The notes under the pieces: generated by a model | Databases searched by the model: none | The model's input: only the letters and a program-made list of their open reading frames with translations | Told to the model about the DNA's origin: nothing | Assembly (NCBI RefSeq): GCF_000723185.1 | Contig: NZ_CBTY010000008.1 | Coordinates: 1-64,000, forward strand | DNA length: 64,000 nt | Source of the DNA: Candidatus Nitrosotenuis uzonensis | Lineage (GTDB): Archaea > Thermoproteota > Nitrososphaeria > Nitrososphaerales > Nitrosopumilaceae | Direction of reading: 5' to 3' | Made by a program: the position numbers and the translations under genes | Shown here: piece by piece, positions 835 through 14,815 of the stretch | Layout of the letters: each line of letters opens with the position of its first letter | How positions within the stretch are numbered: the stretch's first letter is position 1

Positions 835-1536
835 ATGGTTAACGGCAGGGCATGGTTTGCAGAGGCACTATCGACATTTTGTTTGGTGTTCTTCGGACCT
901 CTATCAGTTATAGTGTCCGCAGCAGCATTCGGCCCGGGACTGACACTTGAGGGCATCTTACTGATATCGTTTGCACACGGCTCGGCAATAGGCCTGATGG
1001 TGTACTCGTTTGGCCACGTTTCCGGGGCGCACATCAACCCAGCAGTCACAATCCCAATGATGATTACAAGAAAGATAGGAATAGTAGACGGGATAGGCTA
1101 CATAATATTCCAGATAATAGGCGCAATCATTGCAGCATTCTCACTCAAGACAATACTGCCAGAGCTTGGAGCCAAGGTAAACTTTGGAACCCAGGGAGGC
1201 CCGAGCGAGCTTCTCAACAATTCTGCCATGTCAGGCTTTGCACTCGAACTGGTCTTTACGTTCTTCCTTGTTGTTGTAATATTCATGACTGCAGTGCACA
1301 AAAAGGCATCTGCCGGACTGCACGGTCTCTCAATAGGAGGCATGATATTTCTGCTGCACCTAGTCGGCGTTCCGTTCACGGGAGCATCGATGAACCCTGC
1401 AAGGACGCTCGGTCCTGCAATTGCATCAGGCTACTGGGACTATCACTGGATATACTGGGCAGGCCCGATAATCGGCGGAATCATAGCTGGCCTGATAATG
1501 TACTATATCTTTGTCAAAAAGGCAGAGAGCGAATAA
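835..1536 (+). CDS. MIP-family aquaporin/glyceroporin
   Basis: Membrane channel of 233 aa for water or small neutral solutes. Both pore half-helix signatures are present: GAHINPAVT with Asn near residue 68, and GASMNPART near residue 185. Six hydrophobic segments fit the usual topology. A TTG lies one codon upstream at 832, but ATG 835 fits the TATA box at 804-810 for a leaderless start. The length is normal for bacterial and archaeal MIP proteins. Whether it passes water, glycerol, ammonia or urea cannot be decided by eye. In an ammonia oxidiser such channels are often considered for ammonia or urea, but that is inference. Confidence 0.93.
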   Translation: MVNGRAWFAEALSTFCLVFFGPLSVIVSAAAFGPGLTLEGILLISFAHGSAIGLMVYSFGHVSGAHINPAVTIPMMITRKIGIVDGIGYIIFQIIGAIIAAFSLKTILPELGAKVNFGTQGGPSELLNNSAMSGFALELVFTFFLVVVIFMTAVHKKASAGLHGLSIGGMIFLLHLVGVPFTGASMNPARTLGPAIASGYWDYHWIYWAGPIIGGIIAGLIMYYIFVKKAESE

Positions 1537-1599
1537 ATCCCTTAAGGTACAGCAAGACCTTTTCCATCATTGTCATCTCTGGTATCAGCTGCCGACTCG

Positions 1600-2361
1600 A
1601 TGGACTGGGACGAGTACCTGAGGTGGCTGACCAGCACAAAGCACAGGCACTATGGCAGAAACCTCTGGCTACTTGGGAAAAAAGTCTACAGGATGGCATT
1701 CACGCCGGAGCTAATCCTAATGGAGCACACAAGAAGAAAGGAGGACATACTCAAGGCAATATCGAACATATGCCGCTTTCTTGACATAAAGCACGACACG
1801 TATTTTCATGAGCAGTTCCTTGTGTGGCTCAAAAGAAAGGAGGTAAAGTGGAAGAGGGTGCGCGACCCGTACGAGAACTATGCCCTTGCAGAGACGCTCA
1901 CAATATCGCGCGTTGCAAAAAACATACGGGCCCTGCCGCCCAAGTATACTCTGTTTGCAACCTTTGCCCTGGTGTCTGGCCTGCGCACCGAGGAGGCAGT
2001 ACGCGCATTCAACGACCACCTGCAGCTGTGCAACGGCAGGGTAATTGAGATGTTCTGGGACCGCAGGACAAAAAAGGCAAACGCCGTCTTTTGCCACCCG
2101 ATACTGCACAAAAAGATCTCAATGAAAATAAGCTACAACAGCATACACAGGCACCTCCACTCAAGAATACTCGGATGCCAGCTAAGGCACCTCCGCAAGC
2201 TAAATTATACGATGGTCGCCACGCGAATCGACCCGCTCCTGGCCGAGTTCATGCAGGGCAGGCGCGGCAATATCTCGCAGAGGCACTACTACCTGCCGCT
2301 CATGAGGTCCAGCTACCCGCGGTGGGTCCGGATGTGGGACCCGTACGTTTCCAGGATCTGA
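1600..2361 (+). CDS. Archaeal tyrosine recombinase (integrase)
   Basis: A 253-aa protein with the layout of an archaeal tyrosine recombinase. The first catalytic arginine is in LVSGLRTEEAV (about residue 130). The box II region reads CQLRHLRKLNYT, with Cys in place of the usual His of HxxR. The nucleophile is probably one of the tyrosines in ISQRHYYLP near the C-terminus. The enzyme would cut and rejoin att sites. TTG at 1570 is an alternative start. The gene ends 147 bp before tRNA-Arg, on the chromosomal side of the AT-rich island, and its base composition resembles the flanking genome rather than the island. It may be the integrase of that island or of an older element. Confidence 0.7.
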   Translation: MDWDEYLRWLTSTKHRHYGRNLWLLGKKVYRMAFTPELILMEHTRRKEDILKAISNICRFLDIKHDTYFHEQFLVWLKRKEVKWKRVRDPYENYALAETLTISRVAKNIRALPPKYTLFATFALVSGLRTEEAVRAFNDHLQLCNGRVIEMFWDRRTKKANAVFCHPILHKKISMKISYNSIHRHLHSRILGCQLRHLRKLNYTMVATRIDPLLAEFMQGRRGNISQRHYYLPLMRSSYPRWVRMWDPYVSRI

Positions 2362-2508
2362 TTTTGGTGAGTTTTTTTATCACGTATTTTGGCCGGACAC
2401 TGCATTTTCCCCCACAATGTCAAGTGGGGATGAAATTGATACTGCCATAGCCAAAGATCAAAGGCCTGATGCGCAAGCGAAATTAAAGGGTCGCCTGCGA
2501 CGGTATCT

Positions 2509-2583
2509 GGGGCCGTTGCACAGTCTGGATAGTGCGGACGCTTGCGGAGCGTCAGGTCGTGCGATCGAAGCGCACCGGTCCCG
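2509..2583 (+). tRNA. tRNA-Arg (anticodon GCG)
   Basis: The cloverleaf can be drawn by hand. The acceptor stem is GGGGCCG with CGGTCCC (one G-T pair). The D stem is GCAC/GTGC. The anticodon stem GACGC/GCGTC closes the loop TTGCGGA, giving anticodon GCG (codon CGC, Arg). The T stem is GTGCG/CGCAC with loop ATCGAAG, an unusual A at position 54. Discriminator G is at 2583; no CCA is encoded. The gene marks the left edge of the AT-rich island, and tRNA genes are usual integration targets. Confidence 0.85.
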
Positions 2584-2651
2584 CCTTCTTGATTTTGGTA
2601 AGTTCGAGTCCCCACGAACTAAATTTGATACTCATACGCAATCGTATTTGA

Positions 2652-2703
2652 TTACCCCTACATTTTTGACAAAAATGAAAATTATATAAATCTGTAGGGG
2701 TAA
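2652..2703. promoter_or_regulatory. Palindromic operator around the TATA box of the first fic gene
   Basis: TTACCCCTACA at 2652-2662 and its exact reverse complement TGTAGGGGTAA at 2693-2703 bracket 30 bp containing the TATA box (TATATAA, about 2683-2689). The ATG at 2712 lies about 26 bp after the TATA, so the mRNA is probably leaderless and the right half-site overlaps the transcription start. A dimeric repressor bound here would block both TATA recognition and initiation. The regulator is unknown. Confidence 0.7.
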
Positions 2704-2711
2704 CTACTTTT

Positions 2712-3599
2712 ATGGTGGTAGTAAGAAAGAAAGTGATAAAGGGACAGACATACTACTACCTGGAGCACAGTTATCGAAAAGGCAAAAAGGTTTTGAAAAA
2801 AGAACTCTATCTTGGAAACAAAATCCCAAAAAACATTGAAACTATCAAAAGACAACTCATAGACGACATTTACAAAGTAAAATGGTACTCGGATCTAGAT
2901 ATAATTAAAAAAAATTACATCAAAGAACACAAATCAATACCAAAATCAATCAAAGAAAAAGAACTACAGTCATTTGTCACCAAATTCACATATGACACTC
3001 AGAAGATAGAAGGTTCCACACTCACTAGGAGAGAAACTGCTGATCTGCTTGAAAGGGGAATAACGCCTACAAGCAAACCAATTCGGGATGTAAAAGAGGC
3101 TGAAGCACACAGGGATCTTTTCTATAGAATTTTGAACTCCAAAAAAGATCTGACATTACAAATGACTTTGGACTGGCATTGGGACTTGTTTAGTCAAACA
3201 AAGGCCGATATTGCGGGCGAGATAAGAAAATACCAAGTTGGAATAGGTGCAAGTAAATTCTTGCCACCGTCACCAGTCGAAGTATTCCCAATGCTGACAG
3301 AGTTCTTCCAGTGGTATAACAAGAACAAAAATCGTATTCATCCAATAGAGCTTGCCGCCCTGGCACATCTGAAATTTGTAACAATACATCCGTTTGGAGA
3401 TGGCAATGGCAGAATATCGAGGCTTATCATGAATTTTGTGCTAAACAAGAAGAACTACCCTATGCTTGATATCAAATATGAGGAAAGAAATGGATACTAT
3501 AACGCACTTGAAAGATCTCAAGTCAAAAAAGAAGAAAGAATCTTTCTTCAATGGTTCATCAAAAAATATATCAAAGAGTATCACCGTTATCTAAGATAG
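2712..3599 (+). CDS. Fic domain protein, class II (N-terminal inhibitory motif)
   Basis: A 295-aa Fic-family enzyme; such proteins usually transfer AMP from ATP to a hydroxyl on a target protein. The catalytic signature HPFGDGNGR is near residue 226. The inhibitory helix motif (S/T)xxxE(G/N) is seen as TQKIEG about residue 97, so the enzyme should be self-inhibited until relieved. The first 45 residues are Lys-rich and form a small extra domain. The gene is AT-rich like the rest of the island and has a strong palindromic operator. A second, only distantly similar Fic gene lies at 11569-12528. The target is unknown; toxin-like, phage-defence or regulatory roles are all possible. Confidence 0.92.
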   Translation: MVVVRKKVIKGQTYYYLEHSYRKGKKVLKKELYLGNKIPKNIETIKRQLIDDIYKVKWYSDLDIIKKNYIKEHKSIPKSIKEKELQSFVTKFTYDTQKIEGSTLTRRETADLLERGITPTSKPIRDVKEAEAHRDLFYRILNSKKDLTLQMTLDWHWDLFSQTKADIAGEIRKYQVGIGASKFLPPSPVEVFPMLTEFFQWYNKNKNRIHPIELAALAHLKFVTIHPFGDGNGRISRLIMNFVLNKKNYPMLDIKYEERNGYYNALERSQVKKEERIFLQWFIKKYIKEYHRYLR

Positions 3600-3830
3600 C
3601 ATCAGTGGAATCCAAATCACTGTGTCATCTTTCGAAAAACTCAAAACAAAAATTCTACGCACAAAATAACTGAAACAAGTTTACTATTGTTGAGCATCCC
3701 CCCGGATCCGCTAACTATGTCAGTGCGAGTTCTTTTTTCGCATGACTCGTTCATTACGGGAGTCCGAGAACCACTAGACCCGCTACCTATCATGGTCTTA
3801 AAATAGACCCACCATCATCGATGATGATGC
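3600..3830. other. Intergenic spacer with repeat sequences
   Basis: No credible gene is seen. The spacer contains the 14-mer CCACTAGACCCGCT at 3771-3784 (also at 11192-11205), a second AGACCC at 3805-3810, and a 14-bp perfect palindrome CATCATCGATGATG at 3813-3826 just before the next gene. Confidence 0.5.
3771..3784. repeat. 14-bp direct repeat, left copy
   Basis: CCACTAGACCCGCT occurs here and, in the same orientation, at 11192-11205. The two copies enclose about 7.4 kb holding the restriction, PCNA and IS110 region. This makes them candidate attachment-site or transposition footprints, though only the 14-mer is shared. Confidence 0.45.
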
Positions 3831-4325
3831 TTGTTAAGCCTGGAAAAAATCAGAGAAATCGAGGATCCGTACCAATCATTTCTGGACTCGCTTGTAAATA
3901 ATGACAACAAGCGAAAATATCCGAAACAGCTTTTCAAATTCCTGCAGTTAATTCCACACGAACTTTTCCTAGAAAACGGCATATCAACGTCTGATTGCAA
4001 CAACACGCGATTTCTTGCAAACTGTTTTGTAGCCCTTGCAAAGAAAGATCCCAGCCTTGCAAAAAACATAGGTGAGGCTGAGTGTATGCTAGGTTTCAAA
4101 GAAGCTGGACAGAGATATTTTACCAAGGCTGAAGAAAATTCCATGAACCTCACAGATCAAGCTACTCGTGCAAACGTTCTGATTAATTTGGCAACCGCAT
4201 GTATGAAAATGAAGGAGTATAAAATGGAAAGAAATTATCTGATGAAAGCTTTGCAAACCACTCCGGAAACAGAGAAAATTCTTGAAATAAATAAGAGATT
4301 AAGTGAGCTAAGTCGATACTGCTAA
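3831..4325 (+). CDS. Hypothetical protein: integrase N-terminal-like segment joined to a TPR-like segment
   Basis: A 164-aa ORF whose only in-frame start is TTG at 3831, because a TGA precedes it directly. Residues 10-40 (DPYQSFLDSL, then KRKYPKQLFKFLQLI) resemble the SAM-like arm domain at the start of thaumarchaeal tyrosine recombinases; this is a memory-based impression. The last 60 residues (ANVLINLATACMKMKEYK onward) look like a tetratricopeptide helix pair. No catalytic recombinase residues follow, so it cannot be an active integrase. It may be a chimera left by element decay, or a TPR adaptor. It stands alone between two AT-rich spacers. Confidence 0.45.
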   Translation: MLSLEKIREIEDPYQSFLDSLVNNDNKRKYPKQLFKFLQLIPHELFLENGISTSDCNNTRFLANCFVALAKKDPSLAKNIGEAECMLGFKEAGQRYFTKAEENSMNLTDQATRANVLINLATACMKMKEYKMERNYLMKALQTTPETEKILEINKRLSELSRYC

Positions 4326-4546
4326 AATGGGTCTGATATTGAACTTTCATGATGGCTGGTCTTAACAGATTCAGTACATAATTCAAACATGCAAGCAATC
4401 TAATTTCATCATTATGATTCATGAAATCTGTTTCAGAAGTGATGTACAAATCTTACGCAAACCAGATTTATTAGATATGATTCTTTACATGCGTTAATAA
4501 TTATTGTAAAGCATATAGGATACAAACTAAATAATTATTCTAATTT
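4326..4546. other. AT-rich intergenic spacer with short inverted repeats
   Basis: No gene is seen. AATAATTATT occurs at 4496-4505 and 4530-4539. The first copy lies between CTTTACA (4483-4489) and TGTAAAG (4505-4511), a 7-bp inverted repeat. These may be operator elements for the gene at 4547, whose own TATA-like sequence lies in the second AT block. Confidence 0.35.
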
Positions 4547-5245
4547 ATGATTATTAGCAGAAAACTAATCTCCTGCACTCATTCACATAACTACAAACAC
4601 TATTTGGCGTTCTCTTTCAACCAATCAGATTCAATATTACAACAAGCAATTTTGGAAGGTAAACAGTTAGCAAGAAAAGTAAATCCTCATAATCCGAAAG
4701 AAGAGATAAGGACCTTGCCCCAATTAGAAGCGGCAAATATGCGTGGAAGATTAGCTGAATTATGTACGAAAAATCTTCTTCAAAATGAATTAAAAGTGAG
4801 AAACTTGCCTGGGACCATCACCGAGTCTTCTGAATTTATTGATAGCGTAGAAGGAATTACCCAGATCGATTTGATATTGACTGTCAACGGAAATAAGTAT
4901 CAAATTGAAATAAGATCATCTTGTGTAAGAAATGGAGTATATTTTGGAATTACTTCTGGATTCATCAATCTACTTGGTTGGTACAAAACAGACAGCAAAC
5001 AAAAAGAACCGAAGAAGGATTTCTATCTTATGTACCTATATGGATTCAATGAATCAGAAACTACAAACAAGTTTTCAAATCAAGTGGATGTGAGCTTTGT
5101 TGGTGGTGCAAGTAAGTTAATGCTCCAAGGGCCTTTGGCTTCAGATAAACAATTGAAACAATCAGTAAAGACTCTTTACCGATGTATAAGTCCGATTTGT
5201 ACAGTATATGACGTGGATCAGATATTAAATGAGATGTTTCAATAG
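4547..5245 (+). CDS. Putative PD-(D/E)XK-fold protein of the restriction cluster
   Basis: A 232-aa protein of no family I can name firmly. Its central part fits a PD-(D/E)XK nuclease core: an acidic residue in ITQIDLILTVNG (about residue 107), then a beta strand ending in YQIEIRSSCVR, where E-x-R would replace the usual E-x-K. It lies 68 bp before the nuclease-methyltransferase gene on the same strand, with similar AT-rich composition, so a role in the same restriction or defence module is likely. A non-catalytic DNA-binding subunit is the main alternative because the lysine is replaced. Confidence 0.5.
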   Translation: MIISRKLISCTHSHNYKHYLAFSFNQSDSILQQAILEGKQLARKVNPHNPKEEIRTLPQLEAANMRGRLAELCTKNLLQNELKVRNLPGTITESSEFIDSVEGITQIDLILTVNGNKYQIEIRSSCVRNGVYFGITSGFINLLGWYKTDSKQKEPKKDFYLMYLYGFNESETTNKFSNQVDVSFVGGASKLMLQGPLASDKQLKQSVKTLYRCISPICTVYDVDQILNEMFQ

Positions 5246-5313
5246 AGCAAAATTTCTCACGCATAATTATTGTTAGTATGAAAAATTTCAAATAGTAATA
5301 TCAAAAACTCAAT

Positions 5314-8205
5314 ATGGTGTCTTCTCAGAACCGGATAATAGAAAGAACTCTTTATGATCCTATCAGTGACTTCCTACGGGAAATAAAATTTGACAGCATT
5401 GGTGAATCAAGAGCAGGAAAAGAAAGGGATTTCTCTGACATTGTTTTCACATATGGGAAAGATAAATTTGTAATTGAGGTAAAATTAGAAAAAAATACAC
5501 CAACTTTAAGCACGAAGGCGACTGCGCAAGCCTTTAGGTACGCAAGTAAACTTGGCACATCAAACGTTCTGGTCTTAATATATCCTGAAACTCTCAAAAA
5601 TCAACCTATTGTCAATAGTGAATGGCTAAGAAAAATAACCCTTAACGACAAAATAAAATGTCATGTATTTACTGATTATTGGAATGAAACAGTTGAAGAT
5701 TCTGCCTCAAAAATATTTGAGGAATTAAAAAATAAAATTGATTCCAAAGTTCATAAAATAGATTTACACACGATTGTAAAACAAATACGCCAAATTGTTT
5801 CGGATCTCAACGCAATAACATCATATGTTAAAAAGGAAAAACTCGTCTCTGAAGTAGTTGAAAAATTAGATCTTTTTACATCAATCGGTGACATTGATGA
5901 TCAAGAATTAGCGGAGAATCAAATAACAAATCTTTCTTCATATTTGTTATTCAACCAATTACTTTTTTATAGAATTTACAGTAAAAAAATGACCAGTACT
6001 AAATTACCAGAGTTAACGGAGATAGCCAAAATACAGGATCTACAAAAATATTTTGATGCAATTACTAAAATCGATTTTAAATCTATCTATAAAATTAATA
6101 TCTTGGGCCAAATTCCAGAAGATAATCTGGTAATTGAAATTCTTAATGATGTTATTCAAGCAATCCAATTGATAAGGGCTGAGTTAATTACCCATGATCT
6201 AGCTGGAAGATTCTTTCACGATCTCATTCCTCATGAAATTAGAAAAATACTAGCCGCATTCTACACTCATCCTAATTCTGCGGACTTGTTAGCAGGCCTA
6301 ACAATTCACTCATGGAACGAAACTGTAATGGATCCTGCATGTGGTTCTGGAACATTGTTAGTTGCAAGTTACTCCAGAAAACTAAACTTATACAAATCAC
6401 AGAAAGGATTTGAAAATTTCAAAGCAGTTCATAAACAATTTATTGAAAAAGAAATCAGCGGAGCAGACCTTATGCCGTTTGCAAGCCACCTCACAACAAT
6501 TAATCTTGCTATGCAGCAGATAGATCAACCTACCAACATCGTGAGAATTGCTTCGATGGACAGTCTTGAATTAGCGGATAGGCTCAGAAGCGCTGCGTTT
6601 ACGAGAGGAAAAGGAATCCCAATTACAGGTTTTGAAAAATCAGCACAACTGACACTCACAAACGAAGTTGCTTGGAGTAAAAAAGGAGGATCTGTATCCA
6701 TGGAAGGAAGAGGTTCTACATTCAACATTTCACCATTAGATGTGGTTATAATGAATCCTCCTTTTTCAGATAGAGAAAAAATGCCTGATGAGATGAGAAC
6801 CAAACTGAACAATAATGTTGTTCTAAAGGAAAAAGTTGGGGGGATGGTAAATTTGTGGGGTTATTTTATAGGACTGTCAAATCTTTTATTAAAAAACGGT
6901 GGAATGCTCGGCGCAGTAATTCCAATTAGCATTGCAAGAGGCGGCGCAACTCAACCTGTACGTGATTTTCTTTTGAGTAATTTTTCTGCTAAATTTATTG
7001 TTAAGCCAATAATCGATGATGCATTCAGCGAAAATTCAGCATATAGGGATGTCTTATACATAGCAGAGAGAAAAAAACCCGACGAAAAAGATTATACTGC
7101 AATCGTCTCGATAAAATCTGAAATCAAAAAAATGCCTTCAGATCAAGTAACAAAATTAATCAACGATCTGAACCGCAATTATATTGAAAAAACTAATAAA
7201 AATAACGATGATTACGAAATAACCTTTGTAAAGACAAAAGAACTGTTTGATTATTCTGATAATCTCATGCCACTGATTGGCTTTAAATCACAAAAGAATG
7301 GTTTGGTCATCTCCAATTTTATGGCCGAGGTAAGAAAAACCGCTGGAAATAAACTAGTTAAATTGTCGAAGGAAATTATGAGGGAGGGGCTCCATGCGTC
7401 GCCAGAAGGCCTTTCTGAGCTTGTTTTTATTAATAATCCAATAGACGAATCAAGAGTTAAAAGATCGTTTTTGATCCTTAAAGAAAAGAAATCTCAGACA
7501 CTCAAATTTAAAATTAAATCACTTGAGAATGAATTTGAGATTCCAATCAGCAAAACTCAACCGGCTCTGCGAACATTAACTGGAATTAAAAACTTTATAG
7601 TGGATAATATTGATTATGTGATTACAGAAGAACCAGCAAAATTTGATGAAATTTTACGGTTTTCTAAATGGAAAGGAAAATTTGATTGGTTTACGCACAA
7701 CAAAAATGTCTTGAACAAATTACGTCATGTAATTATTCCAAATCGATTTAGGCCAGATTCAGCAAACACACATCATTTCGCCTTTTACTCAAAGAAAAAA
7801 TTTGTCGCCCCACATTCTTTTAAAATTCTAGACTTTAATAGCTCACAAGAAGGATTATTCCAAACTTTACTGTTAAACAGCAGTATAACCATTGCAAATT
7901 TTCTGTTATACCGTTCTCAATCGACAAGAGGATTTACTCATATTATGGAAGCCGATTGGGTTCTCTACGACTTATTTGACATTAAAAAACTGTCACATGA
8001 GGAAAAATCAAAACTTGAAGAAATAGCAGAAAAACTAGAAGAGATAAATTTTCCGTCAATTAAGGATCAATATTTGACCAATAACAAGTATCGTAGGATT
8101 CTTGATGTTACAATACTTCAAGTCCTTGGTTTCGATAAGGATAGAATCGAACCTGTTCTTGACAAGTTGTATAAAGCCATTTATGAAGAACTTTCCGTAG
8201 ATTGA
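5314..8205 (+). CDS. Restriction-modification fusion: PD-(D/E)XK nuclease plus N6-adenine methyltransferase
   Basis: A 963-aa single-chain enzyme. Residues 35-60 hold a nuclease core: DFSDIVFTYGKDKFVIEVKL shows the acidic residue and E-x-K. A helical linker (about 150-320) follows. The methyltransferase has motif I DPACGSGTLL (about 345) for S-adenosylmethionine and catalytic motif IV NPPF (about 485), which is typical of N6-adenine enzymes. From about 640 to the end the sequence is variable and helical, as expected for a target-recognition domain. The order resembles type IIG (Eco57I-like) enzymes, so one protein may both cut and methylate. Its partner may be the protein at 4547. It is convergent with PCNA, 9 bp away. 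Confidence 0.85.
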   Translation: MVSSQNRIIERTLYDPISDFLREIKFDSIGESRAGKERDFSDIVFTYGKDKFVIEVKLEKNTPTLSTKATAQAFRYASKLGTSNVLVLIYPETLKNQPIVNSEWLRKITLNDKIKCHVFTDYWNETVEDSASKIFEELKNKIDSKVHKIDLHTIVKQIRQIVSDLNAITSYVKKEKLVSEVVEKLDLFTSIGDIDDQELAENQITNLSSYLLFNQLLFYRIYSKKMTSTKLPELTEIAKIQDLQKYFDAITKIDFKSIYKINILGQIPEDNLVIEILNDVIQAIQLIRAELITHDLAGRFFHDLIPHEIRKILAAFYTHPNSADLLAGLTIHSWNETVMDPACGSGTLLVASYSRKLNLYKSQKGFENFKAVHKQFIEKEISGADLMPFASHLTTINLAMQQIDQPTNIVRIASMDSLELADRLRSAAFTRGKGIPITGFEKSAQLTLTNEVAWSKKGGSVSMEGRGSTFNISPLDVVIMNPPFSDREKMPDEMRTKLNNNVVLKEKVGGMVNLWGYFIGLSNLLLKNGGMLGAVIPISIARGGATQPVRDFLLSNFSAKFIVKPIIDDAFSENSAYRDVLYIAERKKPDEKDYTAIVSIKSEIKKMPSDQVTKLINDLNRNYIEKTNKNNDDYEITFVKTKELFDYSDNLMPLIGFKSQKNGLVISNFMAEVRKTAGNKLVKLSKEIMREGLHASPEGLSELVFINNPIDESRVKRSFLILKEKKSQTLKFKIKSLENEFEIPISKTQPALRTLTGIKNFIVDNIDYVITEEPAKFDEILRFSKWKGKFDWFTHNKNVLNKLRHVIIPNRFRPDSANTHHFAFYSKKKFVAPHSFKILDFNSSQEGLFQTLLLNSSITIANFLLYRSQSTRGFTHIMEADWVLYDLFDIKKLSHEEKSKLEEIAEKLEEINFPSIKDQYLTNNKYRRILDVTILQVLGFDKDRIEPVLDKLYKAIYEELSVD

Positions 8206-8214
8206 CACTATAAA

Positions 8215-8970
8215 TTATTGATAAACGATCCTTGGAGCTAAATAATATTCAATTTGAGCATTTGATGATGTGACAAATGACAAACGCAGTGGGCTTGATG
8301 AAGCGTATTCCATTTTCATAGTTTTACATGCTTTTCCAATGTTTCGAATAATATCTTTCATGTATTCTAACGAATAAGTGGAAGACGTATTGTTAACGAT
8401 TTGTACCTCATAAAGCCCAGCATTCTCCTCATCTATATTGATTTTTGATGTTTTATTTTCATATAAACTACTAAATTGTATGACGTTCTTCTTAGAATTA
8501 ATTTGAACACAATCATAATTATTTTTGAAATTAGCAAGTATTTTTTTAACTACATCTGAACCTAAATGAATCATAGAAGTGTATTCGATTTTTGGAGGCT
8601 CAAAATTCTTTAAATCATGAATTTTTTGTATAGTTAATTTTGCAATCAAAACTTTGTTTATGTAAACATTAAGGAATTTGTCATTTGGCATCTCAAACTC
8701 TATTGAATCATTGTGATTGGCATAATTCAAAATAACCCTCAGTTCTTTTATTAAAAATTTAAAAGACAGGTTTTCTACTTTTAGAAATTTAAAGGATGAT
8801 CTAGGAAATGTCACTTCTAACAAGGCAATATTGGAGGAATGTATTGCTCTAAAAACAATAACATTTTTGCTTGTTTGAAAAATTCCTTCTTCAAAGGATT
8901 TTTCTAGTGAGTTAAATACCATTTTCCAATCTTGAATATTAGTAAATTTAACAGAAAACAACAAATTCAT
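8215..8970 (-). CDS. Divergent PCNA-like DNA sliding clamp
   Basis: A 251-aa protein with the length and C-terminal signature of PCNA. YSLEYMKDIIRNIGKACKTM (about 199-218) and the ending PLRLSF...EYYLAPRI correspond to conserved blocks of the second clamp domain. The region LSFKFLIKELRVILNYANHND (about 68-88) matches the first domain helix that follows the DNA-binding strand. Clamps tether polymerases, ligase, FEN1 and other partners to DNA. This copy is AT-rich, divergent and inside a mobile-looking island, so it is probably additional to the chromosomal clamp (outside the window). It may form homotrimers or mix with the host clamp. Confidence 0.8.
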   Translation of the reverse strand: MNLLFSVKFTNIQDWKMVFNSLEKSFEEGIFQTSKNVIVFRAIHSSNIALLEVTFPRSSFKFLKVENLSFKFLIKELRVILNYANHNDSIEFEMPNDKFLNVYINKVLIAKLTIQKIHDLKNFEPPKIEYTSMIHLGSDVVKKILANFKNNYDCVQINSKKNVIQFSSLYENKTSKINIDEENAGLYEVQIVNNTSSTYSLEYMKDIIRNIGKACKTMKMEYASSSPLRLSFVTSSNAQIEYYLAPRIVYQ

Positions 8971-9147
8971 AAAAATTCTTTTGTGGATTAATCATGCTTG
9001 TCATTATTAGTTTACACCTGTACAAAGAAAAAGTAGACTAGATTTTCAAAAGTATGATCGGGTCTTGTTGGATTCGACACTAATTTGGTCTTGACTCAAA
9101 ATGCCTTGAGAAAAAAATATCTGCCATGATTTTAACCATGTATAGTA

Positions 9148-9564
9148 ATGTCTCTTTTATGGTCAGAAAAAATACCACTCGGTACAATTAGAGACCCATT
9201 GCAGCTAGCTATTTTCAGGTTTTCCGAAGAATATTTTATTCCCGGAATAACTACCCAGACTGATAGACTGCGCTATTACACATTTCTGACTTGGGCATGG
9301 TCAGAAATCAGGGAAAGAAAGTCGGATTTAAGGAAAAACGAAATTCGTGATCTTGAAAAAATACTTACACTTGCATCCGCAGAGCATCATATTAACGGCC
9401 TCTCTCAACCAAATGGCATACGAAGTATCACTGCAGGAATAGAATACGTAAAAAACAACCAAAGAATTGAACTTGGCAAATTCACGAGTTTTGGCAGAAA
9501 CAACACTGAAGGCAGGTCTATCTCTTTTAGCCATCGTATGCCCTTCTTTGAGAAGGTCTTGTAG
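9148..9564 (+). pseudogene. 5' fragment of an unknown gene, cut by the IS110 remnant
   Basis: The first 120 or so residues look like a genuine protein start. The motif DPLQLAIFRFSEEYFIPGIT followed by RLRYYTFLTWAW recalls a family seen near bacterial and archaeal defence genes, but I cannot name it. From about 9510 on, the frame reads antisense through the IS110 transposase, so the last 18 residues are not native. The rest of the gene is not found on the far side of the IS remnant. Start ATG 9148 follows an AT-rich stretch. It lies just downstream of the clamp and restriction genes and may have been part of that module. Confidence 0.55.
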
Positions 9565-10094
9565 ACTGGAGATTTGTACTCATATTTTGCTAAAATTGAA
9601 TGAATCTTGTTTTTGTATGTGGTTCTGGTTCTGATTAGTCCCAGTCTTGTTCTGACTAGATTGCGTAGTTCTCGATATGATTTGTCTGGAACAAATGACT
9701 TGCATATCATGTCTGATCTTAGTAGATCTGCAAGTACTTCAGAATCAAGCTTGTCGTTTTTTAGTTTGGCTTGTGCTATTATTTTGGTCTTTGCAGGATG
9801 AGCCAGAATGGTATCGATGCCGTTTTCCTCCAGTGTATAGTGTAATCTGAGCCAGTAATTGGCAGTGGATTCGCATACTGCCCGAATATCACTGTGGTAT
9901 CGTTGTTTTATGGTATTGATGAATTCGTTTACTCCCTGTGAATTATTATCAAATGTTACTTGTCCTAGGATCTGTCTTGAATCGGATTTTACTGTAGCAA
10001 CACACTTTTTCTTGTGTACGTCAATTCCTATGTTGATTATGGTATGATCACCTCCTTGTTTTTGAAAATGCCTGATGCAGCGGAATTCTCCCAT
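9510..10094 (-). mobile_element. Truncated IS110-family element (transposase N-terminal half)
   Basis: About 195 residues of an IS110 DEDD transposase: IGIDVHKKKCVATV with the first Asp, CESTANYWLRLHYTLEENG with the Glu, and KLKNDKLDSEVLADLLR with the distal Asp pair. Homology stops at EIDLP (base 9510); the C-terminal domain with the catalytic serine is gone, so the element is dead. The in-frame continuation down to 9405 is antisense to the broken gene. A GGAGGTGATC Shine-Dalgarno-like sequence, complementary to the 16S 3' end, precedes IINIGIDV. The true start is unclear; ATG 10094 is the only standard in-frame one nearby. Confidence 0.85.
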
Positions 10095-10139
10095 CCACCG
10101 TCATTGCGGTATTTTGTTTTCCGCTCACTCGGAGTCAGT

Positions 10140-10979
10140 CTACGGGTCGCCCTTGCGGTATCCTGTGTGGTACCATGATACCATGGCAGTAAACCATCTA
10201 CTCTCATGCCATACATTTGTATGGATCTGGCTTGCGCTAGGGAAAAGATTTCGTATAACGTCTACGGAGTCTATTTTTTCAGCCTGAACCTTGTTTCTCA
10301 GCATCCCGGCAAGCCTGTCAAATGCGCCTGAGTCAAGACTGGGAATGTTTTTCAAACCGATCTGCTTGGCAAGCTTTTCCCGCACGTCTTCGTCATTAAA
10401 GACATGTTCCGAAGGAGTCCTTGTAATTAGGTTGGTTATGTCTGCCGTCAGCCTGGTTGATGGCTTGAAAGGAATGTCAAACTCAGATTCTTCAAACAGC
10501 GACTCTTGCTCTATTCTGTTTTTGTTTACTTCGTGTTTTATGGTGCTGTTTGTGGTGTACTCTGGATACAAAGTGTAGACATCGGCCAAGACTTCCTTTA
10601 ACGATTTGCCAAAATAATACTGCGGAATGCCGCAAATCTCGTCTACCAGATCCTTCTTTTCACGTATGATGTCTTGAATTTGGCCTCTTCCGCTGTCTGT
10701 TATTCTGTAACGGATTGTGTCTTTTCCATATGTGTTTACCTTGTCTGCAGTTATGAGGCCTTCATTTGCCAGCATCGTTACAGTCTTGGCCAGGGATTTG
10801 CTGAAAACTCCAAATTTGTCAGGCTGCCAGTCGCTGAAGAATTCCTCTTTTTGTCCAATTTTTTTAGAAACCAATAATCCGTATTTCTGTAGCCTTGTGG
10901 AACCTTCAACATATTTTGTAGCGCCAATTAGTATCAGAAGCATCTTTGCACTTTGTGAAAGTGCCATGATTAAAGCCAC
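10140..10979 (-). CDS. Winged-helix protein, YwgA/DUF4065-like N-terminus (tentative)
   Basis: A 279-aa protein of unknown role. Residues 15-95 resemble small winged-helix modules of the type RLQK...F.P..FG.FS....L..L...GLI: here TRLQKYGLLVSKKI, FGVFSKSLAKTVTMLANEGL and RYRITDSGRGQI. Such modules occur in phage-associated and toxin-antitoxin-linked proteins. The C-terminal 150 residues are charged and not recognised. The end (TGYRKGDP) lies close to the IS110 edge, so truncation is possible. It is divergent from nothing close: about 230 bp separate its start from the small gene at 11207, which reads in the same direction. Confidence 0.6.
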   Translation of the reverse strand: MALIMALSQSAKMLLILIGATKYVEGSTRLQKYGLLVSKKIGQKEEFFSDWQPDKFGVFSKSLAKTVTMLANEGLITADKVNTYGKDTIRYRITDSGRGQIQDIIREKKDLVDEICGIPQYYFGKSLKEVLADVYTLYPEYTTNSTIKHEVNKNRIEQESLFEESEFDIPFKPSTRLTADITNLITRTPSEHVFNDEDVREKLAKQIGLKNIPSLDSGAFDRLAGMLRNKVQAEKIDSVDVIRNLFPSASQIHTNVWHESRWFTAMVSWYHTGYRKGDP

Positions 10980-11154
10980 CTGCCGTGAGAATAAAGGCGT
11001 ATCGATTCCATGTTTAGTGGTGTTATGAGGTACATCAGATCTTTGGGGAATAGATATGATGCCATTTCTTCTATTTAATTCATATTTCGATTTCCTTAGT
11101 TAAAACTAATTCCCGTCAAAGTAACTAGGCTATTCACCAAACTTTCAGGCATAA

Positions 11155-11205
11155 AGCGGGTCTAAAAAAGGCCCAAAATGGGTACTGGTTCCCACTAGAC
11201 CCGCT
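11155..11205 (-). terminator. Inverted repeat and terminator-like hairpin containing the 14-bp repeat
   Basis: AGCGGGTCTA (11155-11164) and TAGACCCGCT (11196-11205) form a perfect 10-bp inverted repeat. On the minus strand an inner CCCA/TGGG hairpin is followed by CCTTTTTT, which fits an intrinsic terminator directly after the stop of the small gene at 11207. The right arm includes the second copy of CCACTAGACCCGCT (11192-11205). On the plus strand GGGTACTGGTTCCC has a tRNA T-arm look, so the structure may instead descend from a tRNA-derived att site. Confidence 0.5.
11192..11205. repeat. 14-bp direct repeat, right copy
   Basis: Second copy of CCACTAGACCCGCT in the same orientation as 3771-3784. 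Here it forms one arm of a longer inverted repeat. Confidence 0.45.
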
Positions 11206-11206
11206 C

Positions 11207-11406
11207 TTACGTAATGTACGGGCACATTTTGACGACGACCTTTCCGTTTGGCAAAGTTCCGATGTACTGCCATCCTTCGTTGATGAGCTTCTCTGAATCA
11301 TCGGCTGTGACGACTCGCTGCTTGTATTGCCGTTATTTAGGAACTCTAGCACTTTAGCGATTTCGTCATGGTTAATTTGTTGATTTTCAACTGTTTGTAT
11401 CTCCAT
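11207..11406 (-). pseudogene. Small conserved-looking protein interrupted by a frameshift
   Basis: The ATG frame gives MEIQTVENQQINHDEIAKVL and then EFLNNGNTSSE. One frame over, starting in the same codons, reads VVTADDSEKLINEGWQYIGT then LPNGKVVVKM and stops at TAA 11207-11209. Together they make a plausible protein of about 66 aa whose GW-x-YIGTLPNGKVVVK end resembles small proteins and integrase tails I associate with Thaumarchaeota. The frame change falls near 11312-11320. It is a one-base loss, a sequencing error or a -1 shift; no slippery heptamer is seen. The terminator-like hairpin follows the stop at once. Confidence 0.6.
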
Positions 11407-11568
11407 TTTAGTTGGGGGCTTAATATTGATAATAACCTAGGATTTTATTTTGTCAATTGTTTTCCTGTCTATGTCGCATCTTCTTGAATATCAAACAACA
11501 ATTGACGCAGCTCAGATTCTGGTTTTGCGGAATGCTCAGACTATATCCATTCTCTAGGAGGAATAACA

Positions 11569-12528
11569 TCATTTCCCTTGTTCTTTAAGATAGGCACTGA
11601 TGATTTTTTTAGTGCTTTTCCATGTTTTACCTTCTTTTATGGCGTCAATTCGCCCCTTTCTTGCTAGCAGGCTTAGGTATTCTGCAGAATAAGGTGTGCC
11701 GCCTGCAAGCTTTGCCAACGGTAGGAATTCTTCCTTTTTTGAGGGCTTTTTTGGTGCCAGATAAAGATCCAATGTCTGCTCGACACATCGCGACACATAA
11801 ATCAGAAATGGCTTGAAATTGCCAGAAATATCCATTTCCCGTAGTGCCCTAAGATATTGCGGCTTGTCAACGCTTTTGATTACCGCAAACGGATATCCAT
11901 TTCTTACTAGAATCAAATTAAGTAATAATCTAGACATTCTCCCGTTTCCATCCTCAAATGGGTGAACCCATGCAAAATCATAGTGAATCTGTGCCGCAAG
12001 CTCAATCGGTCTTAACTCATCGGGATTGCTGTTTAATGTATGCAGCAGATCTCTCATGTGTTTTGAAATGTCATAAAATGGAGGCGGTGTAAACCCTGCA
12101 CCCTTTACATCTATGTCATAATTTCGGTATTGTCCAGCGCTAGCAATCACTCCTTTCATTATGATTCCGTGAATTTTTTTAATATCTGATTCAGTTACTT
12201 TGTAAACTCTGTCAAATGCAATTTTTTTAATCAAATCGATTGCATTGGAGTGATTATGTGCAACTAGAATATCTCCGAGGTCTTTTCCACGCAATGCGTC
12301 CGGGATATTCTTTTTTCCTATCGTTATTCCTCGTAGTATTAGCTCAGTTTCGCCTCTGGAAAGCGTACTGCCTTCTATTTTGTTGCTATTGTAAACAAAA
12401 TCCACCTGCATGCGCTCGTCGATCTCTTTAATTCTTCTTGGAGTAAGATGTCCTTTTGATCCAAGTTTTCGTTTTTTCTCTGTTATTCTCTTTTGTATGT
12501 GTGAAGGTAATTCTGCGTACTGTGCCAT
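11569..12528 (-). CDS. Fic domain protein with C-terminal helix-turn-helix-like domain
   Basis: A 319-aa Fic-family AMP-transferase candidate. The inhibitory helix motif SNKIEG is near residue 49 and the active-site loop HPFEDGNGR near residue 191. After the Fic fold (to about 255) comes a segment beginning GGTPYSAEYLSLLARKGRID that looks like a DNA-binding helix-turn-helix, as in many Fic proteins that may regulate their own transcription. The palindromic operator at 12530-12553 touches the start codon, which fits autoregulation. The start ATG is 12528, with an AT-rich TATA-like stretch about 30 bp upstream. It is AT-rich and shares only the domain with the Fic at 2712. Confidence 0.93.
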   Translation of the reverse strand: MAQYAELPSHIQKRITEKKRKLGSKGHLTPRRIKEIDERMQVDFVYNSNKIEGSTLSRGETELILRGITIGKKNIPDALRGKDLGDILVAHNHSNAIDLIKKIAFDRVYKVTESDIKKIHGIIMKGVIASAGQYRNYDIDVKGAGFTPPPFYDISKHMRDLLHTLNSNPDELRPIELAAQIHYDFAWVHPFEDGNGRMSRLLLNLILVRNGYPFAVIKSVDKPQYLRALREMDISGNFKPFLIYVSRCVEQTLDLYLAPKKPSKKEEFLPLAKLAGGTPYSAEYLSLLARKGRIDAIKEGKTWKSTKKIISAYLKEQGK

Positions 12529-12529
12529 G

Positions 12530-12569
12530 GTATCGGATAAGTCTATCCGATACTAAAATATATCGGATA
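12530..12569. promoter_or_regulatory. Palindromic operator with a third half-site before the second fic gene
   Basis: GTATCGGATA (12530-12539) and TATCCGATAC (12544-12553) form a perfect 10-bp inverted repeat with a 4-bp spacer, starting 2 bp from the fic start codon. A third copy, TATCGGATA, is at 12561-12569. The TATA-like ATATATTTTA (minus strand) lies between the second and third half-sites. Binding here would cover both the transcription start and the TATA box. Confidence 0.75.
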
Positions 12570-12710
12570 AAATTACACGATATTGAATCGCCTCATGCTG
12601 TTATCTGGCACGAAGCAGGAAAATTCCAACCTAAGGGATTGAAATAATCAATTAATTCCTTTGAGCTTTATGGATTTGGCAAATATCGGAATTTAGATTT
12701 TGACACTTTT

Positions 12711-12909
12711 GTGCACGAAAAGCTCGCAATAATCTTCAGGCCTCGTGCCTAAATGTACGGCAAAAAGCTTTTCTCGTAAATTTCGTGTACGAAGCTTAGG
12801 AAATGAGCTTATTCTGTTGATTTTACGAAGATTCACTAAAAGATTATCCAGTAGTTTTTCACGCACGAAGAAGCTCATTCACACATTGTTATCCTACTGG
12901 GATTACGAA
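12711..12909. repeat. Iteron-like array of ACGAA motifs
   Basis: The core ACGAA recurs at 12715, 12789, 12825, 12865 and 12905, with a variant ACGG at 12757, in the same orientation at steps of 42, 32, 36, 40 and 40 bp. Three copies share a longer form near GYACGAA followed by AGCT. No ORF that looks real crosses it. It could be an iteron-type origin, a regulator-binding array or a decayed repeat. An additional ACGAA lies at 12610. Confidence 0.4.
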
Positions 12910-13060
12910 CTATAACAAAATTAAGGAAAAAATTTTCTACTTACGTGTGATATGCATAGCATGGGTCTGAGATCAAACCCGGAACGCGCAAAATATCCAA
13001 CCAGACCCTCACCTATCTTATTCGAAATTATTGGTGATCTTTCTTCAAATATTTACTGAT

Positions 13061-13101
13061 TAGTACGGACGCCTCGCAGGCGTCAGGTAGTGCGATCAAC
13101 A
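13061..13101 (+). repeat. tRNA-like remnant similar to tRNA-Arg(GCG)
   Basis: TAGTACGGACGC...GCGTCAGG and GTGCGATC match the D-arm end, anticodon stem, variable loop and T stem start of the tRNA-Arg at 2530-2566, with the anticodon loop changed (CTCGCAG). No acceptor stem or closing T stem can be formed, so it is not a working tRNA. The position at the composition border, about 10.5 kb from the tRNA and in the same orientation, fits a scar of integration. Confidence 0.45.
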
Positions 13102-13218
13102 AGCAGTCAAGCACCGCAGTTCCTGCGCATCCTGTACTGCATATCTGGAATTTGCCGGAGTGACTTCCAAAGATGGAACGAGCAAAAGATATGGATGTGC
13201 TGTTTTAGAATTATTCAG

Positions 13219-14784
13219 TTGAACGCAAAAAAATCCTCGCCGTTTATCATACCTGCTCTGGTCGGCGCCTTCATCCTTGCCGGCTCGCTCATCGTGTTTT
13301 TCCAGCTGTCCTCATACCAGGCCCAGATAATAGAGTCAAACAAGGATGACTATACCAAAGTCATCGAGAACACCATATCAAGAAGGGAGGGAAGGGTGCA
13401 AACCATATCATCTGGAATAATAGGCCTCTATGGAAGCTCAGAGCGTGTCAGCTCAGCAGAGTTTGACAGGTTTGCGCAGACAATACTTGGCAGCAACTCT
13501 GAGATACTCAACTTATTTGTGCTTGATGGCAGTACAATAGTGGAATCATACCCGATAAAAGAATACGTCGGACATGACTTTGATTTTCTGTTTCCTGACT
13601 ATCCTACAGTTGTGGCCGGACAAAAGGCAATGACTGCCGAGTTTGCAATAAACGAGACTGCATCGCTTGTGATTGCAGTACCATTTGGATATTTTATCCC
13701 AGAGGGCACGATACTTTCTGAGCAGTACAAGCTTGTATTGCTCAGTCCGATAGATGATAATGAAGTACTGTACAGCGTTGCCAAGTCGGGCGGCGCATCA
13801 GGGAGTGTGGTAGAGTTATTGCAAAAGGAAAAAGATAACGCAATAACTGTAGAATACAAAACAAATCTGTTTGGGCACAAGCTGAAAAAATACTATGATC
13901 TGAGGTACGTTCTCTGGGATGCAAGCTTTGAGGCGCAATCATACGAGCATACCATAATACTTGTGGCAGGAGTTGTCCTCTCGTTTGTAATCCCTGTATT
14001 GCTTGTGCGCACAAACCTTCTGAGGGCAAGGCTGCAGGAAAAGTCAGAGGCCCTTGAGAGGGCAAACGAGGAGCTAAAAAAGGTGGAAAAATCAAAGGAC
14101 GAATTTGTAACGATGATAGTTCACGATCTGAAAAACCCACTTCTTCCAATAAAGGCGTATTCTGAGATACTACTCTCGCAAAAACTGGGTCAGCTAAACG
14201 AGGAGCAGGCAAAGAGGCTTCACTCAATTAGCACCAGCGCGATTACATTACAAAAGATGATTCAGGACTTGCTTGATGCAAACAAGCTAGAGCTTGGCAA
14301 GCTCAGACTGGATATTCAGGAGGGAAACCTCTCTGAGCTTGTAAGACGTACGATGTCAGAGCTGGAGCCCGAGTTTAGGAAAAAAGGAGTTGCAGTATCG
14401 CTAGAATTGCAGGACGTATCATGCAGGTTTGATTCCATGAGGATGGGACAGGTATTCCAGAATATACTGTTAAATGCCCTTGACTTTGTGCCTGATAAGA
14501 CGGGCAAGATACACATATCGCTCAAATCAGAGGGAGGCAACGCAGTTATTACGATTGCGGACAACGGCATTGGAATACCAAAGGACAAGATAGACGGACT
14601 CTTTGCCAAGTTCTATCAGGTGTCGACAGACAAGAACAGAAGATACGGTGGAAGCGGCCTTGGGCTTTCAGTATGCAAGGGAATAGTGGAAGGGCACGGG
14701 GGCATGATCCGGGCTGAATCCGACGGGGAGGGCAAGGGCACTACAATGCACATCATGATTCCTCTTGCAGGTAAATCGGCATAG
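13219..14784 (+). CDS. Membrane sensor histidine kinase
   Basis: A kinase of 521 aa from the chosen TTG start (ATG 13195 is possible). One transmembrane helix is at about 9-29, then an extracytoplasmic sensor domain of some 220 residues, a second helix at about 250-270, a coiled coil, and the HisKA domain with the phosphorylated His in FVTMIVHDLKNPLLPI. The ATPase domain shows N-box NILLNALDF, G1 DNGIGIP and G2 GGSGLGLSV, so it looks catalytically complete. It senses an unknown signal outside the membrane. No response regulator is adjacent; the nearest is the CheY-like protein at 20003-20401. It is the first gene outside the island. Confidence 0.92.
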   Translation: MNAKKSSPFIIPALVGAFILAGSLIVFFQLSSYQAQIIESNKDDYTKVIENTISRREGRVQTISSGIIGLYGSSERVSSAEFDRFAQTILGSNSEILNLFVLDGSTIVESYPIKEYVGHDFDFLFPDYPTVVAGQKAMTAEFAINETASLVIAVPFGYFIPEGTILSEQYKLVLLSPIDDNEVLYSVAKSGGASGSVVELLQKEKDNAITVEYKTNLFGHKLKKYYDLRYVLWDASFEAQSYEHTIILVAGVVLSFVIPVLLVRTNLLRARLQEKSEALERANEELKKVEKSKDEFVTMIVHDLKNPLLPIKAYSEILLSQKLGQLNEEQAKRLHSISTSAITLQKMIQDLLDANKLELGKLRLDIQEGNLSELVRRTMSELEPEFRKKGVAVSLELQDVSCRFDSMRMGQVFQNILLNALDFVPDKTGKIHISLKSEGGNAVITIADNGIGIPKDKIDGLFAKFYQVSTDKNRRYGGSGLGLSVCKGIVEGHGGMIRAESDGEGKGTTMHIMIPLAGKSA

Positions 14785-14815
14785 CACAATTATACTGTGG
14801 ATTCACACATATGTC

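Follow-up and report, generated by a model that had tools for sequence, protein, structure and literature searches.

A second, divergent PCNA predicted beside a type IIG-like methylase in a mobile defence island of Candidatus Nitrosotenuis uzonensis, and the probable association of accessory archaeal clamps with methylation-based defence

The DNA analysed here (the window) is a stretch of 64,000 nucleotides at the beginning of contig C8 (NZ_CBTY010000008.1) of the ammonia-oxidising archaeon Candidatus Nitrosotenuis uzonensis, whose genome comprises 1.64 Mb in 14 contigs. Three coding frames lie close together near its left end: one of 232 aa (4547-5245, + strand), one of 963 aa (5314-8205, + strand) and one of 251 aa (8215-8970, - strand). 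The first-pass annotation had described them as a PD-(D/E)XK-like protein, a nuclease-methyltransferase fusion and a PCNA homologue packed in AT-rich DNA. The frames were recovered exactly as described and the composition was confirmed, with a GC content of 0.29-0.37 at 5-9 kb compared to ~0.45 in the remainder.

To the left of this module, a gene for an archaeal tyrosine integrase (1570-2361, +; Phage_integr_3, Pfam PF16795, 8.8e-9) precedes a tRNA-Arg(gcg) (2509-2585, +; ARAGORN), which is followed by a gene for a Fic family protein (2712-3599, +; PF02661, 1.3e-22; PDC-S04/SoFic in PADLOC). On the right there is an N-terminal fragment of a DUF6361/ZacA-like gene (9148-9564, +; PADLOC ZacA, 1.5e-5; PF19888, 0.0039, below cut-off), then the N-terminal part of an IS110-family transposase (9405-10094, -; PF01548, 2.7e-29, DEDD domain only) and a second Fic family gene (11569-12528, -; PF02661, 1.1e-22), which is also found in the island of the sister-species genome G054 with 76.7% DNA identity. 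Together with a winged-helix gene and the module itself, these genes make up the cargo of the island. The ZacA/DUF6361-like gene appears to have been broken by the IS110 remnant (9148-10094), as the frame of the latter overlaps the fragment.

The position of this cargo is best understood by comparison with related genomes. In two of them (G070 and G025) the order is an aquaporin gene, ~55 bp, tRNA-Arg, ~300 bp and a homologue of the gene found at 14.8 kb in the window, while the window carries the integrase 5' of the tRNA-Arg and ~12 kb inserted after it. The distance from the aquaporin gene to a DnaJ-like gene (1530-14800 in the window) is 1.8-4 kb in G070, G357, G025, G340 and G003, and the same flanking genes are ~28, 64 and 83 kb apart in the sister genomes G054, G090 and G082, respectively. 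The empty-site relatives (L117 and L118) lack the integrase in the interval from the aquaporin gene to the tRNA, and G054 has it. Because the size of the gap differs between relatives, the tRNA-Arg is an integration hot spot, and the module sits in a mobile defence island at this site. A second copy of the tRNA 3' end, as expected for att repeats, was not found within the window.

The 963 aa protein is predicted to be a type IIG-like enzyme that combines an intact adenine methylase core (approximately residues 300-640) with a putative nuclease in the same chain. Both N6_Mtase (PF02384, 3.8e-13) and Eco57I (PF07669, 6.5e-12) scored above the Pfam cut-offs, several type I, II and IIG methylase profiles of PADLOC also matched, and the SAM motif DPACGSGTLL and the catalytic NPPF were invariant in alignments with three to four relatives, even though the nearest relatives found were only ~26% identical. 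The N-terminus carries SDIVFTYGKDKFVIEVK, and the relative in L009 reads PDIFIESDGYYFIEGK at the aligned place, following the PD-(D/E)XK pattern; in this alignment the D...EVK of the window enzyme faces the PD...EGK of L009, and L010 has a degenerate version. As the nuclease part went unrecognised by any profile and modelling gave a structure of low confidence (pLDDT 45), an N-terminal nuclease is likely rather than proven, so that the methylase half of the proposed fusion is well established and the nuclease half depends on the motif. The C-terminal part presumably serves in target recognition. A relative of this methylase, with PDFQ...EAK, was also found at 7857-10784 of two IMG/VR contigs of 75-77 kb with a GC content of ~0.55 (L104 and L105), apparently a virus-borne copy; a single-sequence scan of genome contigs yielded no further relatives.

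The 232 aa protein encoded upstream is on the same strand as the methylase, with a gap of 68 bp, and is probably its operon partner. It had no match in Pfam, PADLOC, NCBIfam or PHROG, no significant match in the PDB and no homologue in 300 genomes of the class or in viral and genome-wide scans, and its structure model (pLDDT 37.5) was too poor for fold comparison. The gene preceding the L010 relative of the methylase was considered as a counterpart and turned out to be unrelated. The earlier description of this orphan as a PD-(D/E)XK protein thus found no backing in the profile libraries, the PDB or the 300 genomes; a D...EIR motif read by eye makes such a fold possible but unproven.

With respect to the 251 aa protein, its assignment to the clamp family is clear in Pfam, NCBIfam and the PDB, as had been proposed. 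Both PCNA_N and PCNA_C (PF02747 and PF00705) matched above the Pfam cut-off over the full length, the PDB PCNAs aligned end to end (residues 5-248, to 5e-18), and the NCBIfam sliding clamp model (NF002221) gave 4.4e-37, yet below its curated cut-off. The canonical PCNA of the host is encoded on another contig (G000:C11:179863-180597) and shares 29% identity with the window clamp, which belongs to a separate clade; genus mates have one PCNA only. Judged by these comparisons, the window clamp is not an orthologue of the canonical protein, and represents a second, divergent and full-length PCNA beside it. It retains the C-terminal LAPR, as well as basic residues on those helices that should lie against the DNA. 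Its pI of 9.1 is the highest of all clamps compared (most of them acidic, range 4.2-8.3), and it alone among 64 Nitrososphaeria clamps has PP at a given position of the interdomain loop. Two adjacent prolines in the corresponding loop of Sulfolobus PCNA2 make the pocket for partners narrower (PMC3504372) and, by analogy, a changed partner range is plausible for the window clamp.

The clamp and methylase genes are convergent, with 9 bp between them, so they do not form one operon and the clamp is its own transcription unit. We found no strict PIP motif (QxxhxxaA) in the methylase or the orphan protein. IQDLQKYF and NQLLFY in the methylase were discarded as candidates because these runs are also present in relatives that lack a clamp and were taken as structural, and the C-terminus of the orphan shows a degenerate PIP-like DQILNEMF. 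Tethering through PIP motifs therefore has no support as judged by sequence. Moreover, PCNA was absent near all eight methylase relatives (three in Nitrososphaeria and five in viral contigs, two of these of 75-77 kb), which led us to reject the methylase as the unit of the clamp linkage.

The linkage was found instead when the clamp itself was followed. PCNA was searched in 400 genomes of the class and the second copies were then examined by neighbourhood. In the tree, the PCNAs of the window, G106, G280 and G177 formed one accessory clade (support 95/89) apart from the canonical clamps, within a topology with several open forks and long branches, the longest noted being that of the window clamp (2.49). 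Two of the three other members of this clade head defence operons of the Hma kind (helicase-methylase-ATPase, DUF499-type). In G106 the PCNA gene is followed after 56 bp by HmaA-HmaB-HmaC and a HEPN gene, all on one strand, and in G280 it is followed after 87 bp by HmaC and then by an HmaB running off the contig, again co-directional. The compact defence island of G106 (L042 2308-19677) also includes LmuB (Lamassu-like) and a Cap4-type nuclease near the PCNA-led operon, and its HEPN protein is Swt1-like. The G177 member (L043 9478-10224), ~55% identical to the Hma-linked PCNAs, lies between aroC (chorismate synthase) and aroA (EPSP synthase). The PCNAs of G106 and G280 are 58% identical, while their HmaB and HmaC proteins are only 25-27% identical, indicating that highly dissimilar Hma operons have retained this clamp or gained it anew. 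Furthermore, one strand in G137 encodes a PCNA together with a type IIG enzyme and a PLD-SNF2 helicase, in this order with the PCNA last and beside an integrase. This PCNA groups with that of G264 (96/99), with an origin separate from the window clade; the association between clamps and defence genes thus arose at least twice. A QRELLDWF in the G137 helicase is the one perfect PIP match in a defence partner, but a single such match is no more than chance would give, and it falls in the PLD domain. The co-occurrence suggested by the first-pass annotation was not observed for this methylase in the sample covered (0 of 8 relatives), but it holds for the clamp clade, twice beside Hma, and for a separate PCNA beside a type IIG enzyme, which supports the pairing of a clamp with defence genes as a recurring theme. 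We do not regard Hma as an obligate clamp system, since only two of the six HmaB-bearing loci have a PCNA (loci with an HmaA-like helicase and without HmaB were excluded from this count), which makes the clamp dispensable there. None of HmaA, HmaB or HmaC was found among the window island genes scanned, nor HmaA elsewhere in the same genome. No further clamps of the G106/G280 type were recovered in a family-wide search (250 genomes) or in genome- and virus-wide pattern scans.

Could this recurrence be due to chance? About 4 of 14 second PCNAs in Nitrososphaeria (window, G106, G280 and G137) adjoin methylation-based defence genes, the count of 14 being soft owing to short contigs and an identical sequence in G145 and G395. 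N6_Mtase had 50 matches in 91 genomes of the class, and at this rarity the chance that an average gene lies next to one is far below 1%. With chance adjacencies of 1%, 5% and 10%, the probability of the observed number is 9e-6, 0.004 and 0.044, respectively, and it becomes 0.00027, 0.025 and 0.13 when the window, itself selected because of the pattern, is left out. We therefore consider the association of accessory clamps with methylation-based defence genes probable rather than proven.

The explanation that we tentatively favour is that the island carries a type IIG-like restriction-modification enzyme together with an accessory PCNA whose lineage is linked to methylation-based defence systems, and that this clamp would hold defence machinery at the replication fork. 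The recurrence of accessory clamps beside rare methylase systems with at least two origins, the similarity of the G106 and G280 clamps despite their divergent partners, the retained basic residues and LAPR of the window clamp, the lack of replication genes among the island genes scanned and the T4 precedent described below speak for it; against it stand the convergent genes, the clamp-less methylase relatives, the presence of PCNA at only two of six Hma loci, the missing PIP motif, the clade member between aroC and aroA and the P value of 0.13 obtained at 10% adjacency with the window left out.

The common view of accessory PCNAs is that they serve the replication of mobile elements, and the window clamp could accordingly be left over from a plasmid or virus that inserted itself at the tRNA-Arg in the past, lying near the methylase as shared mobile cargo. 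Extra PCNAs do occur in replicons. In L083 (G177) a divergent PCNA (9800-10504) is located near an MCM-like gene (7179-9272) on a contig of small same-strand frames, likely a virus or plasmid with its own clamp, and the divergent clamps of haloarchaeal plasmids (L100-L103) are found with MCM or Cdc6, or in a context without recognised function. Two of these plasmid clamps are followed by a DUF6166 gene. Given such neighbours, some extra clamps are probably replication genes, and the integrase and hot spot beside the window module would fit this origin. However, no match to MCM, Cdc6, polymerase, primase or a replication initiator was found among the window island genes scanned with Pfam, the window clade is apart from the L083 and plasmid clamps, and searches of viral contigs and phages gave no match to it, with genome-wide pattern scans adding none. 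We consider this reading rather improbable, although it is the strongest of the alternatives.

It is unlikely, on the other hand, that the clamp is a neutral accessory paralogue that came to lie beside the methylase by chance in a gene-collecting hot spot. Islands do cluster mobile genes, the window clamp is on a long branch and other second PCNAs in Nitrososphaeria have unrelated neighbours, but the recurrence beside rare methylase systems in three other genomes and the tight same-strand spacing in G106 and G280 would not be expected from a bystander. Less likely still is a stand-alone defence PCNA that mixes with host or viral clamps or competes for RFC and polymerase and so blocks or senses viral replication: the strongly altered sequence with its pI of 9.1 and unique PP, the separate transcription unit on the strand opposite to the methylase, and the neighbouring Fic genes and ZacA-like fragment would suit such a decoy or sensor, but AT-rich coding alone could raise the lysine content, and the acidic G106 and G280 relatives, co-directional with Hma genes, better fit a shared function.

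Returning to a clamp that holds defence machinery at the fork, the accessory PCNA would form a ring, would be loaded onto replicating DNA by the host clamp loader and, through a contact with its partner, would keep the methylase/nuclease or the Hma machinery at or behind the fork. Newly made host sites could in this way be methylated ahead of nuclease action, or replicating foreign DNA could be scanned efficiently. We infer both the nuclease activity and the functional purpose of the module. A broader proposal, that archaeal methylation-based immunity (type IIG-like, Hma/BREX-related) has repeatedly recruited a dedicated PCNA subunit coupling methylation or restriction to replicating DNA, is more doubtful. 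In restriction systems the marking of new host DNA has to outpace its cutting, and it is not settled how systems of the BREX/Hma type discriminate foreign DNA that is replicating from their own. If true, a clamp of this dedicated kind would directly link methylation-based defence with the replication fork and, as a PCNA subunit, would be a new architecture for restriction systems. Our data hint that some immune systems use their own clamp and suggest that some accessory PCNAs belong to immunity.

The first-pass annotation knew of no restriction system described with a clamp; in agreement with this, we found no paper evidently describing one in the open-access literature, an absence that is not proof. 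Neither the 2026 survey of DUF499/BREX-related systems (PMC12839542), nor the work on Hma/BR systems (PMC8565338), nor a survey of archaeal immunity (PMC12988326) mentions a clamp or PCNA. We consider the clamp-defence association probably real and apparently undescribed; the mechanism proposed for it is tentative.

Several known systems share part of this arrangement. Thermococcus kodakarensis PCNA2 (TK0582) is, like the window clamp, a second archaeal PCNA; it is dispensable, and lateral acquisition has been proposed for one of the two copies (PMC3984812), a paper that describes no defence association. Precedents also exist for enzymes working on a clamp. The T4 alpha-glucosyltransferase is a DNA modifier that binds gp45, although this is a phage replication clamp, the reaction is glucosylation and not restriction, and the interaction is not what sets the share of modification (PMC13216743). 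The archaeal nuclease NucS/EndoMS binds PCNA through a C-terminal PIP motif, in this case the host clamp in mismatch repair, with no dedicated clamp (PMC4929162). The clamps closest to that of the window (G106 and G280) are hosted by BREX-related (BR) systems with Hma/DUF499, which are likewise centred on methylation (PMC8565338, PMC12839542), whereas no Hma gene was found among the window island genes scanned. Finally, type IIG enzymes (Eco57I/MmeI-like) have, like the window enzyme, a single chain with an N-terminal PD-(D/E)XK-type motif (in the window enzyme a candidate one), an N6-adenine methylase core and a long C-terminal part, and Haloferax HVO_A0006, a PD-(D/E)XK protein related to methylases, is a case from the archaea; the window enzyme differs from the type IIG enzymes in its ~26% identity to the nearest relatives, in the orphan gene upstream and in the PCNA gene downstream.
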